Part shown: piece after piece, positions 16,491 through 35,672 of the stretch | Layout of the letters: every line of letters begins with the position of its first letter | Numbering within the stretch: position 1 is the stretch's first letter | Virus record (IMG/VR): IMGVR_UViG_3300024518_002057 | Location: 1 to 39,466 of that record | Strand: one strand, 5' to 3' | Length of the DNA: 39,466 nucleotides | Source: a virus | Notes under the pieces: model-generated | Seen by the model: only the letters and a program-made list of their open reading frames with translations | What the model was told of the DNA's origin: nothing | Databases searched by the model: none | Translations under genes and position numbers: made by a program

Positions 16491-18269
16491 ATGGGTCAAA
16501 CACAAATAGAAGAAATTATTTTAAAAGTTACAGTTGACACCAAAAAAGCTGACGCAGGTTTAGACGGGTTGGAAGATAAAGCAAAAAAAGTAAATACTGG
16601 TCTAAAGAAACTTGACCCAACAACCGCAAGCGTGAGCAATAGCCTTGGAGATATGAGGGGCCAAATTAAGGCCAACAATATAACACTGGGAACAGCTCAA
16701 CAAAATCTAGCCAGAATTGCCAAGCAAAATAAAAAAGTGTCAGCTAGTAATAAAAAAGTCGGTTTAAGCTTTAGCGCAGTAGGCAAAGTTGTTGCGGCAT
16801 TAGGACTAGCTAAACTGGGCAAGGAAGCTTTTGATATTGCCTTAGCGTATGATAAAATCAATAATAGTCTTAAAACTGTAACCGGTTCACAAGCTGCCGC
16901 TAATGCTGAATTTGCTTTTTTGGAAGGTTTAGCCGATGATTTAGGCGTTCAAATTCCAAGTATTGCCGAGGGCTACACCAGATTATATTCTGCTATGCAA
17001 GGCGCTGGAATTGCTACCTCTGTGACTCGTGAATTAACTCAAGGCGTTGCCGAATTATCAACCGCTATGGGCTTAGGCTCAAGTGAAACTTCAGGATTGA
17101 CAAGGGCACTTTCTCAAATCGCGGCAAAAGGCAAAGTTTCTAGTGAAGAGTTACAGCAATTAGCAGAGCGTGGCGTTGATGCTTTTGGCCTTGCTTCTCG
17201 TGCTATCGGTGTGACTACAAAAGAATTGACGAAGATGCTAGAACGCGGTGAGATTATATCGAGTGACTTTTTGCCTAAGTTTGGTAAACAGATGCGCTTA
17301 GAATTCGGAGATGCGGCACAGGAAGCAAGCAATAGTGCTCAAGCGGCAGTCAATAGAATGTCAAATGCTTGGGAAAAATCCTTAACTGGAATGGGTAATG
17401 CAATCTCAAAATTTATTCCAATAGCAACCAGCTTACTTAATACAGTTAATAGCGTTGGTGAAGCAGTTGGGGAAACGGCAACCGGTTTTAGTCTTTGGAT
17501 AGATGAGCTTATGGGTGTTGTGGATACTTCGGGAGATGCTGACACTGCCGCCATTGAGTTAGGTAGAAAAAGACGTTTAGCCGCACAGGAAGCCAAAAAG
17601 AACGCAGACGCCGAAAGAGAATACAAGAAAGCGTTAGAGGAATCCGCGAAGGAAGCTAAAAAAGTTGAAGGCTTTGGAGAGTTAGGAAAAAAACTTATAT
17701 TCAATGAACAACTGGAAGAAATGGCGGAAAAGCTCAAACTGACCAAAAGTGAATTGAAGTCATTGGGGCCGATTATTCTACAAGCATTAGGCAAAGGTGC
17801 TGACTTACAAACTGTTGAAGATCAAGTTATTTCCATCGTTAAGCACTTTAAAGACGAATTAAACACCATTCAGCCCCTAATTGAAGACTTATCAACGCCA
17901 TTTGATGCGGTACTAAAGAAGGCTACACAATTACAAGAAGCTATGGATATGTCTAAGGTATTAGGACTCAATAAGAAAGAATTTGACAAGATCAAAGGGA
18001 CTCTAATTGATGCCATAAATAAAGGCGTAAGCATAGACCAAATTAAGGCAAAAATTGCCGGTTTACGTGATGTTGGTTTTTTCGATGAGGAGCAGAAGAA
18101 GGTCGAGCAAGAACTGCCAAAACTTACTGGTACAACCGTGGAAGCTGGAACGGCGGCCGCAACTGAATTTTTAAAACAATCTGAGCTTGATGTAACCCGT
18201 AATGATATGTTATCTAAGATTGAAAAGAATACGGCTAAATCAAATCAAATTAAAGTAATAACTAAATAG
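16491..18269 (+). CDS. Tail tape measure protein, 592 aa
   Basis: It is helical throughout with the conserved tape-measure N-terminal region: LADDLGVQIPSIAEGYTRLY, GLTRALSQIAAKGKVSSEEL, QLAERGVDAFGLASRAIGV and SNAWEKSLTGMGNAISKFI near residues 140-310. A coiled coil (AAQEAKKNADAEREYKKALE) follows. No lysozyme or peptidase domain is visible. The family sets tail length; 592 residues at roughly 0.15 nm each suggests a tail near 90 nm. The position behind the chaperone pair confirms the call. Confidence 0.93.
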   Translation: MGQTQIEEIILKVTVDTKKADAGLDGLEDKAKKVNTGLKKLDPTTASVSNSLGDMRGQIKANNITLGTAQQNLARIAKQNKKVSASNKKVGLSFSAVGKVVAALGLAKLGKEAFDIALAYDKINNSLKTVTGSQAAANAEFAFLEGLADDLGVQIPSIAEGYTRLYSAMQGAGIATSVTRELTQGVAELSTAMGLGSSETSGLTRALSQIAAKGKVSSEELQQLAERGVDAFGLASRAIGVTTKELTKMLERGEIISSDFLPKFGKQMRLEFGDAAQEASNSAQAAVNRMSNAWEKSLTGMGNAISKFIPIATSLLNTVNSVGEAVGETATGFSLWIDELMGVVDTSGDADTAAIELGRKRRLAAQEAKKNADAEREYKKALEESAKEAKKVEGFGELGKKLIFNEQLEEMAEKLKLTKSELKSLGPIILQALGKGADLQTVEDQVISIVKHFKDELNTIQPLIEDLSTPFDAVLKKATQLQEAMDMSKVLGLNKKEFDKIKGTLIDAINKGVSIDQIKAKIAGLRDVGFFDEEQKKVEQELPKLTGTTVEAGTAAATEFLKQSELDVTRNDMLSKIEKNTAKSNQIKVITK

Positions 18270-18277
18270 GTCAAATC

Positions 18278-19171
18278 ATGGCAACTATAAGCACATTAAA
18301 ACGCTATCACATACAGCCTGATTTAGAGGTCAACGGAAATAGTGTAGAAGTTAACGAAACGTGGATATTGAAAACCAATACGAGAACCTCAACGGCTGGC
18401 GTCCGTCTGTTGATTAATGCTTTAACAGCTTCAAACTCTTATGGGTGGCCTATCATTGGCGATGAAGACGATGGACAACACGAAGATGACTCAAGCTTAG
18501 TTGCAACAACTTATAATATTGCTCGTGATGAGGAAGCTGGATTTATATTTATGTTAAGCGTATTTTATACGAATGATATTAATACAATTGCTAAATCCCA
18601 GAATCAGTCTGACTCAAGTAATGGTTATGATTACCAAGAAGTTACAGTGATGGAAGAAGTTGACTTTGACCCGATTCAAGAAAAACAAATATCTGCCTCA
18701 AGTGGTGAGGGTGTATGGCCAAAATTGCAACGTCCGAGAACATTAGATAGAATCATTGTCACACGCAATCAATCAAGATATAGACCAAGCGATTTAAAAC
18801 GTTATAGGAATAAAGTTAATTCCAGCTCAATGAATATTGATGGGTATAACTACGAAACGCGCAGCTTAAGAATGGAAAGTATCACTGGCAAAAGACAAAT
18901 TGATCCAGACGGCGAAGAATATTATATTGTTCGTTATGCGCTTTTATATGATCCAGACCAATTGCACCAAAAGCCTTTGATTGATATTGGCAACGGGCCT
19001 GACGTGAACGGAACACACCCACAAATTGTAGGCGCAAAATGGAACAAACCTCGGAAACTGGACGGCTCCGGCGCTTACATGTCAAAGGCTCGACAGCAAG
19101 ATCCAACCGACTACGTAACTAATACATGGAATATTTATCCTGAAGTAGCAATGAATCATTTAAGGTTATAA
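18278..19171 (+). CDS. Tail protein downstream of the tape measure, 297 aa
   Basis: It occupies the distal-tail position. The protein is polar and beta-rich (LKRYHIQPDLEVNGNSVEVN, DDSSLVATTYNIARDEEAGF), and later has many charged segments (RNQSRYRPSDLKRYRNKV). I do not recognise a DIT or hub family in it, but by order it may be a distal tail or baseplate component. It abuts the next gene with a 1-base gap. Confidence 0.55.
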   Translation: MATISTLKRYHIQPDLEVNGNSVEVNETWILKTNTRTSTAGVRLLINALTASNSYGWPIIGDEDDGQHEDDSSLVATTYNIARDEEAGFIFMLSVFYTNDINTIAKSQNQSDSSNGYDYQEVTVMEEVDFDPIQEKQISASSGEGVWPKLQRPRTLDRIIVTRNQSRYRPSDLKRYRNKVNSSSMNIDGYNYETRSLRMESITGKRQIDPDGEEYYIVRYALLYDPDQLHQKPLIDIGNGPDVNGTHPQIVGAKWNKPRKLDGSGAYMSKARQQDPTDYVTNTWNIYPEVAMNHLRL

Positions 19172-30977: not shown

Positions 30978-31112
30978 AGACCCAGACCTAGACCTAGACC
31001 TAGACCCAGACCAAGACCTAGACCAAGACCCAGACCAAGACCCAGACCTAGACCAAGACCCAGACCCAGACCCAGAACTAGACCAAGACCCAGACCCAGA
31101 CCCAGACCTAGA
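30978..31112. repeat. Array of 22 hexamers AGACCN, never with G at the variable base
   Basis: The array is 135 bp: 22 copies of AGACCN followed by AGA. The last base of the unit is C in 10, T in 6 and A in 5 copies; one copy is AGAACT. The 5-unit block at the end (CCA, CCC, CCC, CCC, then a CT-ending unit) occurs twice. Leftward it reads TCTNGG, lying between the stop of the 88-residue gene (31136) and the ATG at 30955. The only long open frame through it (a TTG start at 31166) would give a Ser-Gly/Arg/Trp tail with no sign of codon-level constraint. Confidence 0.92.
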
Positions 31113-31478: not shown

Positions 31479-31549
31479 GTACATAAATGACTTCAAAGTA
31501 GAATTTGATGCATATTTTAAAAAAGTTTACAAAAAGTCAATTACAGGTA

Positions 31550-31578
31550 TTGCAAAAAGTTTACAGTTGAATTATCAT
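31550..31578 (+). promoter_or_regulatory. Phage-class promoter P2 for the middle operon
   Basis: TTGCAA (31550-31555), AAAGTTTACA (31556-31565), and TATCAT (31573-31578) at 17-bp spacing. A second box lies at 31522-31531, 34 bp upstream, with a partial one (AAAGTCAATTACA) between. The 213-bp divergent region (31403-31616) thus holds both early promoters and several boxes, and is the probable control switch. Confidence 0.75.
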
Positions 31579-33392: not shown

Positions 33393-33598
33393 TGAAACCG
33401 CGTGAAATTGAACAAACAAGTAAAAAGCTTAAAGCTCATATTATATGTTGTTATTTATTGGGGATGTTTGGAGCGTTGATATTATGCTTTGGGGATCTTA
33501 AACAAGAAGGTGCCGCGTTTACTATTCTCTGCTTCTGGCTAACTGGAGGCGTTTGGTATATCGTAACAAAATTTAGAGTATGGTGGAACAATGGATAA
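33392..33598 (+). CDS. Two-helix membrane protein, 68 aa
   Basis: I start at 33392 (TGATG overlap), after GGGGGAAGTG. A basic start (KPREIEQTSKKLKAH) is followed by two hydrophobic stretches (IICCYLLGMFGALILCF and FTILCFWLTGGVWYIV). The short loop is FGDLKQEGAA. Probably an inner-membrane protein of the middle operon. The end overlaps the next gene by 8 bases. Confidence 0.6.
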   Translation: MKPREIEQTSKKLKAHIICCYLLGMFGALILCFGDLKQEGAAFTILCFWLTGGVWYIVTKFRVWWNNG

Positions 33599-33833
33599 AT
33601 ATATAAGCTTATTAGAATTGGTTAAGTATTATTATCAAACGAACTGCGCCGGTGGCAATCTTCACGTGTTACTTGATGACGGCAATACAGAGTATTCGAC
33701 ACTTCAGTTTTGTTTAGAGATATGCGAGAATCAAGGTGATTTACTAGGCGCGTTAATATGCGAAATGTTATATAGTTTCCCTGAAAAGGCAATACAGGAA
33801 TTTTACCAGAGGGGAGGATATAGACTTGATTAA
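33591..33833 (+). CDS. Hypothetical protein, 80 aa, last gene before the structured RNA
   Basis: It overlaps the previous gene by 8 bases. It is a soluble protein (YISLLELVKYYYQTNCAGGN, LHVLLDDGNTEYSTLQFCLE) of a kind seen in small phage genes; I cannot name the family. Its end contains the -35 of the promoter for the structured RNA. Confidence 0.6.
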   Translation: MDKYISLLELVKYYYQTNCAGGNLHVLLDDGNTEYSTLQFCLEICENQGDLLGALICEMLYSFPEKAIQEFYQRGGYRLD

Positions 33834-33853
33834 ATTTAATAAAACTATATAAT
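33826..33853 (+). promoter_or_regulatory. Promoter for the structured RNA region
   Basis: TTGATT (33826-33831) and a perfect TATAAT (33848-33853) are 16 bp apart. Transcription would start near 33860 and reach the terminator at 33902-33967 after about 108 nt. Confidence 0.65.
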
Positions 33854-33859
33854 AGGGTA

Positions 33860-33967
33860 AAGGCTGTTGACCTAGTCTTAAAACAAACTAAATGCCAATT
33901 TACCCGCCTCTTGAGGAAGCTTTACATTTAGAGCTTAGGTCAAACTCAGGATGAGCGGGTTTTTTTT
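33860..33967 (+). ncRNA. Probable free-standing structured RNA or attenuator leader
   Basis: The 147-bp gap has a promoter, paired elements and a terminator but no gene. TTGACCTA (33867-33874) pairs with TAGGTCAA (33936-33943). AAGCT (33917-33921) pairs with AGCTT (33932-33936) inside the terminator stem. The long 5' stem and the terminator stem interleave, so they would form a pseudoknot or two competing states. The RNA is about 108 nt. A small regulatory RNA or an attenuator controlling the downstream regulator gene both fit; I match it to no known family. Confidence 0.6.
33902..33967 (+). terminator. Intrinsic terminator at the end of the structured RNA
   Basis: ACCCGC(C)TC (33902-33910) pairs with GAGCGGGT (33953-33960) with one bulged C; the stem encloses about 42 nt with an internal hairpin, then T8 (33960-33967). 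The ribosome site GAGAGGATATT of the next gene follows immediately, so expression of that gene would need read-through or a separate start. Confidence 0.75.
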
Positions 33968-33980
33968 CTGAGAGGATATT

Positions 33981-34232
33981 ATGGATAATGAATTAAAAGA
34001 TTGCGTCACGCATTTTCAAAATCAAAAACAATTAAAACTAACCAAGTGGATCGATTCATTAGATGGACGCGCCAGAGTATCTAAAATTTTAGGTGTAAAT
34101 AAATCCACTCTCTACCGTTGGGAAACCGGAGAACTTCCTGTGCCTGAATGGTTGAATAAATATATGTTAATGTCTGAAAATCTCGCAGAGGCCAAGCAGG
34201 AAATAGCACAGTTAAAAAGGGCGTTAAAATGA
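33981..34232 (+). CDS. HTH regulator, CII/Cro-like position, 83 aa
   Basis: The ATG follows GAGAGGATATT. A helix-turn-helix lies near residues 31-55 (ARVSKILGVNKSTLYRWETG), and the C-terminus is a coiled coil (SENLAEAKQEIAQLKRALK) suited to oligomerisation. Gene order, regulator then replisome organizer then helicase loader, mirrors lambda cII-O-P. It is a candidate to bind the AAAGTTTACA boxes. It overlaps the initiator gene by 4 bases. Confidence 0.72.
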   Translation: MDNELKDCVTHFQNQKQLKLTKWIDSLDGRARVSKILGVNKSTLYRWETGELPVPEWLNKYMLMSENLAEAKQEIAQLKRALK

Positions 34233-34882
34233 GTACTGGATGGATAAGACTGCATAGGCAAATACAAGATAATCCACTTTGGACTTGTGAAGCATTTACA
34301 AGGGGTCAAGCTTGGGTTGATTTATTACTCTTAGCTAATCATTCAGAATCATTTTTCTATAAGCGAGATATTAAGATATCAGTCAAGCGGGGGCAGGTCG
34401 GAAGAAGTGAGGTTGAATTAGCTGATCGCTGGAAGTGGTCAAGAAGTAAGGTAAGAAAGTTTTTAAAAGACCTTGAAAAAGAACAGCAGTTAACACAGCA
34501 GAAAAGTAATGTAACTCAACTACTTACAATTAATAATTACGAGGAATACCAGAAAAAAGAACAGCAAGACGTACAGCAAGAAGACAGCAAGAAGACAGCA
34601 AAAGAACAGCAAGAAAACACATACAATAATGATAAGAATATAAAGAATGATAAGAATGATAATAAAAGACCTGCCACTAACACCCGCTTTCAGCCTCCTA
34701 TATTAGAAGATATTGCCTCATATTGTTTACAGCGAAATAATGGTGTAGATTCTGTGAAGTTTCATAATTTCTATTCTGCGAAAGGTTGGATGGTGGGCAA
34801 AAATAAAATGAAGGATTGGAAGGCGGCCGTTCGAACATGGGAAAAACCTAAACAACAAAACGACAGTACAGGGGGTTGGTGA
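34229..34882 (+). CDS. Replisome organizer (replication initiator), with origin-like repeats inside
   Basis: The 217-residue protein starts GWIRLHRQIQDNPLWTCEAF, followed by FTRGQAWVDLLLLANHSES and a winged-helix end (KWSRSKVRKFLKDLEKEQQL), as in phage replisome organizers. A polar linker (residues about 100-150) rich in Gln, Glu and Lys is coded by DNA repeats (see 34561-34616). The C-terminal part (FHNFYSAKGWMVGKNKMKDW) matches the DUF-type domain seen at the ends of such initiators. It should bind the origin and recruit the loader. Confidence 0.85.
   Translation: MSTGWIRLHRQIQDNPLWTCEAFTRGQAWVDLLLLANHSESFFYKRDIKISVKRGQVGRSEVELADRWKWSRSKVRKFLKDLEKEQQLTQQKSNVTQLLTINNYEEYQKKEQQDVQQEDSKKTAKEQQENTYNNDKNIKNDKNDNKRPATNTRFQPPILEDIASYCLQRNNGVDSVKFHNFYSAKGWMVGKNKMKDWKAAVRTWEKPKQQNDSTGGW
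34561..34668 (+). other. Candidate replication origin: iterons plus AT-rich region
   Basis: Five copies of ACAGCAA(G/A)A-type repeats, 11-12 bp apart, occupy 34561-34616 (starts 34561, 34573, 34584, 34595, 34606). Shorter ACAGCAG copies lie at 34483 and 34495. They are followed by a very AT-rich tract (34617-34668) with GATAAGAAT at 34631 and 34649 and a partial third copy. Initiator iterons within the initiator gene next to AT-rich DNA match the lambda O/ori design. Coding of a Gln-rich linker could also create such repeats, so this is inference. Confidence 0.6.
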
Positions 34883-34883
34883 T

Positions 34884-35615
34884 ATGAAAACGAATTGTAT
34901 AGAATGTAATAGTGAATTTGATTATATACCTGCACAGAATGCGCTCGGTGTTAATTTAAGCGATTTAAAGCCAACTTTATGTACAAGTGAGTGTGAGTCT
35001 ATCTATCGCGCTAAAACGCAGGCAGAGGTATCTAAAAACGTATTCTATCGAATTTTAAACATAATGCCCGATGCTTATAAAGGCGTTAAGATGGATGATT
35101 TCAATAATACGCCTATTTGCCAAGGTGGCAAAGAGTATAAATTTCAAGACTTGGTGCAACGTTATTGTAATTCTCAATATTGGAATATTAGCCTTTTTAG
35201 CCCTCAGTACGGCAATGGTAAAACTCGAATGGGTTTATATATGTTGGCATGTTTAGCACTTAAGGGAATTTATAAAACACGAGAAATACATAACATTCAA
35301 GACGCGGGATATTATTCTGCTATTGATATAGTAAAGATATTGAAAACAGAAACCTTTGACGCCAAGCAGTACCAATTGAAACGGTTTTACAGTTCTCGTG
35401 CTTTGATGATTGATGACTTAGGGCAAGAGCCTAAACAGTTTTCAACAGAGATAGCAGGGATTTTAAAAGTGCGTGAAGAGACTTATAGAAAAACCATTAT
35501 TACAAGTAATTGTACGAAAGAGGAATTAATGGAGCGTTACACTGGCCGGATATATTCACGAATTGCCAAGGGTGCGTTTTTAGTTAAAGGTTCAGATTAT
35601 AGGATGGCTAATTAA
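34884..35615 (+). CDS. DnaC/IstB-type helicase loader ATPase, with N-terminal zinc motif
   Basis: The 243-residue protein has Cys pairs at C5/C8 and C33/C37 (NCIECNSEF, LCTSECES), then an AAA+ core: Walker A-like SPQYGNGKTRM (106-116), Walker B ALMIDDLG (173-180), sensor-1 IITSNCTKEE (206-215) and arginine region GRIYSRI. It is the DnaC/DnaI-type loader that brings host replicative helicase to the origin. It lies one base after the initiator gene. A mobile-element IstB is unlikely as no transposase is near. Confidence 0.85.
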   Translation: MKTNCIECNSEFDYIPAQNALGVNLSDLKPTLCTSECESIYRAKTQAEVSKNVFYRILNIMPDAYKGVKMDDFNNTPICQGGKEYKFQDLVQRYCNSQYWNISLFSPQYGNGKTRMGLYMLACLALKGIYKTREIHNIQDAGYYSAIDIVKILKTETFDAKQYQLKRFYSSRALMIDDLGQEPKQFSTEIAGILKVREETYRKTIITSNCTKEELMERYTGRIYSRIAKGAFLVKGSDYRMAN

Positions 35616-35643
35616 AAAGTTTCTAAAAAGTTTACAACAGACC

Positions 35644-35672
35644 TTGATAAAAGTTTACACTTAGATTATTAT
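35644..35672 (+). promoter_or_regulatory. Phage-class promoter P3
   Basis: TTGATA (35644-35649), AAAGTTTACA (35650-35659) and TATTAT (35667-35672) at 17-bp spacing. A second AAAGTTTACA is at 35627-35636, 23 bp upstream as in P1, with a degenerate third (AAAGTTTCT) before it. It drives the operon from 35710 to the DUF5664 gene across the window ends. Confidence 0.78.

Follow-up and report, generated by a model that had tools for sequence, protein, structure and literature searches.

What does a gene-free gap directly ahead of phage replication genes encode: a stand-alone structured RNA, or a leader that belongs to the genes behind it? The question is raised by an IMG/VR virus record of 39.5 kb, analysed over its whole length and called the window here, which also encodes TerL, portal, capsid and tape-measure proteins. 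A first-pass annotation, made from the letters only, had described a promoter, an 8-bp stem, an inner stem and a T8 terminator in this gap, together predicting a 108-nt RNA. All of these elements are present, in the following arrangement.

33826-33853, plus strand: promoter, TTGATT (-35), 16-nt spacer, TATAAT (-10)
33855-33861, plus strand: GGGTAAA, 5' arm of a possible antiterminator, a 7-nt exact inverted repeat with TTTACCC
33860-33879, plus strand: hairpin P1, AAGGCU-GUUGACCU-AGUCUU, at the predicted 5' end of the RNA (folding)
33867-33873, plus strand: K, UUGACCU, in the P1 loop (folding)
33899-33905, plus strand: TTTACCC, 3' arm of the possible antiterminator, overlapping the 5' arm of the terminator
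33902-33960, plus strand: terminator hairpin (predicted fold, -24.3 kcal/mol), with 33902-33907 paired to 33955-33960 and 33909-33915 to 33945-33951
33917-33936, plus strand: inner hairpin AAGCUUUA-CAUU-UAGAGCUU within the terminator hairpin (predicted fold)
33937-33943, plus strand: K', AGGUCAA, unpaired within the terminator hairpin and complementary to K in P1
33960-33967, plus strand: U8 tract (T8 in the DNA), read from the sequence, predicted 3' end
33981-34232, plus strand: HTH regulator of 83 aa, the first gene behind the RNA, with weak PHROGs regulator matches
34229-34882, plus strand: DnaD-like replication initiator or helicase loader of 217 aa (E 1e-28), whose relatives have the RNA family described below upstream
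34884-35615, plus strand: DnaC-like helicase loader of 243 aa (protein match)

The promoter overlaps the 3' end of an upstream 80-aa ORF (33591-33833) and is the single occurrence of TTGAnn-N15..18-TATAAT on the plus strand of the window. The RNA predicted from it runs from about 33860 to 33967, the end of U8, which gives 108 nt. The HTH gene begins at 33981, its ATG being separated from the end of T8 by only 13 nt. A further promoter would not fit into this space; the RNA thus doubles as leader of the replication genes, and its description as stand-alone becomes doubtful. The AAGCT/AGCTT stem (33917-33924/33929-33936) turns out to be the apical part of the terminator hairpin rather than an element separate from it. 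The site is missing from a simple terminator scan because that scan permits loops of at most 8 nt.

The long stem of the first-pass annotation, which interleaves with the terminator, is formed by TTGACCTA (33867-33874) and TAGGTCAA (33936-33943), an exact match of 8 bp with a possible imperfect extension to 17 nt. It had been taken to suggest either a pseudoknot or a switch between terminating and non-terminating states. The predicted fold leaves K' unpaired within the terminator hairpin, where it can contact K without disrupting the terminator. The stem is therefore most plausibly a 7-bp kissing (loop-loop) contact formed by the P1 loop and the loop of the terminator hairpin. A switch by mutually exclusive pairing was rejected, as a nested K-K' helix is about 11 kcal/mol worse than the terminator fold. 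Thus, the pseudoknot is retained as a pseudoknot-like loop-loop contact, and the exclusive switch is dropped; with contact and terminator able to coexist, the structure does not by itself require that read-through be affected. The GGGTAAA/TTTACCC stem, absent from the earlier annotation, overlaps the promoter region and has a predicted energy of -10.4 kcal/mol as a hairpin alone. As an idea, it could form an antiterminator in those transcripts only that enter from upstream.

How far the contact exceeds chance was assessed within the window and among other terminators. Of the dinucleotide-shuffled sequences, 5% show 8 nt of complementarity between the upstream part and the terminator loop (p = 0.052), and the combined hairpin-loop-to-terminator-loop score is reached in 45 of 2000 shuffles (2.2%, p = 0.022). 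Among strong terminators that were not placed in the family described below, about 1% reach the same score. In the control set, comprising 231 strong terminators of the fetched loci that an automatic filter had left outside the family, seven score at least 12, the window (12.75) among them. Of the other six, L070 is a plain family member, L062, L086 and L111 are divergent relatives, and two are likely chance. A looser definition of a terminator raises the background, which then includes two coding sites of the window itself, and whole-RNA folding of the window RNA gives z = -1.86. Taken from the window sequence alone, the interleaving is modest (p about 0.005-0.05), suggestive and not decisive. 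These figures bear on a plainer explanation, in which a promoter and an intrinsic terminator simply lie between two operons, K and K' match by chance and the short transcript has no function. The shuffles and the few similarly scoring terminators outside the family speak for it, whereas a dedicated promoter followed by termination after 108 nt calls for a reason. We regard this explanation as somewhat unlikely, and further evidence on both sides follows.

The two arms could also be read as DNA. As a perfect inverted repeat in a regulatory gap next to an HTH gene, TTGACCTA and TAGGTCAA might be operator half-sites of a phage regulator, with no RNA pairing involved. This is very unlikely: further copies of TTGACCTA (1769, 10987, 18267) fall within genes or beside one gene start, the evident operator set is a different element, and the arms covary as RNA in the phage family. 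That other element, 57 nt long and promoter-like, with AAAAAGTTTACA direct repeats and a -10-like end, is present three times (761-817, 31522-31578 and 35616-35672), and the three copies are likely repressor operators of the window phage; the RNA promoter lacks it.

Several further repeats of the window were recorded. A copy of TAGGTCAA, identical to K', lies at 18267-18274 directly before an ATG at 18278 and is probably due to chance. Between early minus-strand genes, 22.5 tandem copies of AGACCC/AGACCT occupy 30978-31112, possibly an iteron array or origin. GACCTA repeats (30985-31105) were considered as a source of K and rejected, being part of this AGACCY tandem array; they do not explain K.

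Stronger evidence comes from other phages. Relatives of the DnaD-like gene of the window were fetched, and the terminators before them were inspected. A recurrent RNA of about 95 nt was found there. It begins with a P1 hairpin bearing an 8-nt K in its loop, followed by an A-rich linker that contains UUAUU, and continues with a terminator stem of about 10 bp, a UGAA/GGAU internal loop, a 4-bp inner stem and a U-tract. The loop of the inner stem is K', the exact complement of K. As a first loose descriptor gave too high a background, tighter descriptors were used. One of these detected kissing-loop terminators in 26 of the 80 stretches that precede DnaD-like genes, a set to which the window belongs, compared with 11 of 2188 control stretches (0.5%). 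A strongly conserved kissing-loop plan at the same position in about one-third of the DnaD-linked stretches argues against the chance explanation.

The extent of this family was examined with a scan pattern that fixes only the linker, the internal loop and two K' bases, naming neither K nor P1. It gave at least 120 matches in uncultured viral contigs. Among the viral matches listed, 119 carry the family RNA, nearly all with exact K-K' complementarity where the flank suffices; the match in L223 was set aside as chance. The descriptor scored 113 of all 128 listed matches, viral and genomic, and most of the unscored viral ones are cut by contig ends or deviate slightly from its rules. In 84,980 genomes, the pattern had eight matches, none with a K-K' match, so the main family was not seen in the genomes scanned. 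Two RNA queries against 50,697 phage records returned no true match. In Rfam 15, which includes the C4 antisense RNA family, nothing reached the gathering threshold for either the window RNA or the family representatives searched.

Covariation was measured on alignment A2, which holds 51 non-redundant family sequences and in which 93.8% of cells pair. The covariation score is 0.664, against 0.211 for shuffled and 0.05-0.11 for slid alignments. Changes on both sides are seen in 25 of 28 pairs (P1 5/5, kissing helix 6/8, terminator stem 10/11, inner stem 4/4). Covariation across all four helices establishes the RNA family, including its loop-loop contact. The comparison proposed in the first-pass annotation thus yields strong covariation of this architecture among phages whose initiators are related.

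The family RNA lies about 20-40 nt upstream of the first ORF of an operon that contains an optional small ORF, an initiator of about 200 aa (DnaD-like or other) and a protein of about 300 aa, a helicase-like ATPase in the examples read. A TAnnTTTG promoter directly precedes P1 in 111 of 119 members and lies between terminator and gene in only 2 of 116. This motif is the -7 element of Bacteroidota, and the hosts of these phages are thus probably Bacteroidota. Antisense promoters are not enriched in the family (6/116 versus 4/79), and the minus strand of the window has only weak promoter sites.

Whether the window RNA belongs to this family was judged by structure, setting and sequence. Its P1 loop and terminator loop are complementary over 7-8 nt (K UUGACCU, K' AGGUCAA), a promoter of its own stands before P1, and the initiator operon follows directly with no promoter between. 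It lacks the UUAUU linker and the UGAA of the family; GGAU alone has a counterpart in the corresponding position (33949-33952), where the predicted fold pairs part of it. The covariance model R1, run with filters off, gives no match at the window locus up to E 10. Since R1 misses it, membership is architectural, and the window RNA is probably an architectural relative or analogue of the family rather than a proven member. The miss also counts in favour of the chance explanation.

The searches made brought up no close relative of the replication region of the window. DNA similarity searches with the window RNA in INPHARED phages, PLSDB plasmids and IMG/VR gave no real match, a hit in L003 being a chance 18-mer within a coding frame, and the 83-aa HTH protein found no relatives in IMG/VR. 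With the DnaC-like protein as query, one relative at 52% identity (L002/L004) was obtained, which has no comparable gap; the others are remote only, and a genome scan with the DnaC alignment gave no match. The contig L014, whose TerL is 81% identical and whose head region is syntenic, contains no replication region. It ends in genes of the right end of the window, a layout suggesting that the two ends of the window are adjacent in the genome.

The initiator itself points in both directions. Vibrio and Pseudoalteromonas phage loci with related initiators have no kissing terminator; they carry a plain terminator and a promoter instead. The element is also missing from contigs that share 63-75% identity with the window in the DnaD N-terminal domain, except L233, in which inspection by eye showed a comparable unit of promoter, P1 and terminator, its 8-bp contact containing one G-U. 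Both observations favour the chance explanation. The DnaD-like protein of the window is about 52% identical to those of the RNA-bearing contigs L121, L150 and L226.

The same plan recurs with different sequences in L044/L058, L045/L047, L054/L159/L171, L061, L062, L069 and L233, with L061 and L233 assigned by eye. Divergent versions stand ahead of other initiators as well as of HNH endonuclease genes. The version in L086, L111 and L150 has an 8-nt P1 loop, as in the window; here K changes from GUUGCGG to GUUACGG between L086 and L111/L150, and K' changes in step. Four kissing-loop terminator RNAs of these contigs are located as follows.

L086, 7791-7866: kissing-loop terminator RNA
L111, 3525-3603: kissing-loop terminator RNA
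L062, 1930-2018: kissing-loop terminator RNA
L150, about 4576 on the reversed contig, minus strand: kissing-loop terminator RNA

In L086, L111 and L062, a NUMOD4/HNH-type endonuclease gene lies directly behind the RNA, at a distance of 10 nt in L086 and L111. This bears on the proposal that the RNA or its transcription primes or activates a replication origin. The main-family RNA is always beside replication genes, which speaks for such a role, but the same plan before HNH endonuclease genes away from an initiator speaks against it, and the proposal is very unlikely.

The divergent versions also raise the question of action in trans. In several of them, the gene that follows has a further copy of K at its start codon: AGGGCAGTATG in L054 (p 0.0015), TCGCAGCAAAAATG in L062 (p 0.001), ACAACCATG in L044/L058 (p about 0.05) and ACACGACCGATG in L045 (p 0.09). 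In L044, L045, L054, L058 and L062, this hints at an additional contact of K' with the region where the next gene starts. An antisense RNA would then be conceivable whose K' binds an early phage mRNA at its start region and blocks translation, in the manner of C4 or RNAI, with P1 as a latch or decoy. As an account of the window RNA, this is unlikely. No K copy was found at the downstream start in the main family or the window, and the HTH-gene start region is only 3-nt complementary to K'. Copies of K elsewhere in main-family contigs show no excess (3 seen versus 3.3 expected), which rules them out as targets there; the most likely partner of K' is K itself rather than some fixed target outside the RNA.

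Set against these alternatives, the window RNA as a promoter-proximal leader or attenuator of the replication operon is a reading to which we give about an even chance. RNA polymerase would start near 33860, make P1 and then the terminator hairpin, and mostly stop at U8, releasing the 108-nt RNA. K in the P1 loop would pair with K' in the terminator-hairpin loop to form a compact kissing structure, which might set, or let a factor set, read-through into the HTH, DnaD-like and DnaC-like genes. The contact may tune termination or present a binding surface. The position of the window RNA suggests control of replication, and as the same layout is conserved before replication genes in at least 119 other contigs, it probably controls the start of phage replication. 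The sequence elements, the lack of room for a second promoter and the covariation of this architecture at the same position in many phages are direct observations. We infer that the K-K' contact could change read-through in one direction or the other, possibly with a ligand or protein, and that what holds for the family may transfer to the window. The attenuator reading is weakened by the R1 miss, the modest K-K' statistics of the window and the contigs with a similar DnaD and no element.

The broader proposal, which we consider evenly balanced, is a class of RNAs that is widespread and missing from Rfam 15. In this class, a 5' hairpin loop would kiss the loop of an intrinsic terminator and gate early phage genes, namely replication initiators and HNH endonucleases, in several lineages. 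The window RNA would be a divergent member with a sigma-70-like promoter instead of TAnnTTTG. The significance of the findings rests mainly on the phage family and less on the window RNA alone. Detailed accounts of the timing of replication onset exist for few model phages, and a covarying promoter-terminator RNA ahead of operons with different initiators would represent a general control point at the RNA level. As K varies between phages and K-K' is nearly always matched, the contact could, speculatively, act as a phage-specific code comparable to plasmid copy-control loops.

Among known systems, the 6S RNA of phage lambda (pR'-tR') likewise combines a phage promoter, a short terminated transcript and genes reached by read-through only; it differs in serving late genes and depending on Q, and it is not known to have a kissing loop. 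In the open-access literature, the scope of our search, no RNA of the kissing-loop terminator kind was found described. The attenuation systems of pT181 and of pIP501 repR (pIP501 reviewed in PMC4981023) also have an intrinsic terminator in the leader RNA of the replication-initiator gene that directly follows. There, control comes from an antisense RNA encoded on the opposite strand, whereas here antisense promoters are not enriched and the contact lies within one RNA. The C4 antisense RNA of P1/P7 (relatives in PMC5320573) and the lambda OOP RNA (PMC5869508) are small RNAs of phages as well, encoded close to early regulatory genes or to replication genes; both are antisense to other transcripts, unlike the kissing-loop family. 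Structured-RNA candidates from comparative genomics (e.g., PMC2864571) similarly covary, and some derive from phages; the window RNA and the phage family differ from them in matching no Rfam family. The kissing-loop terminators constitute a new RNA family within a broad kind that is already known, that of structured leaders and small RNAs.
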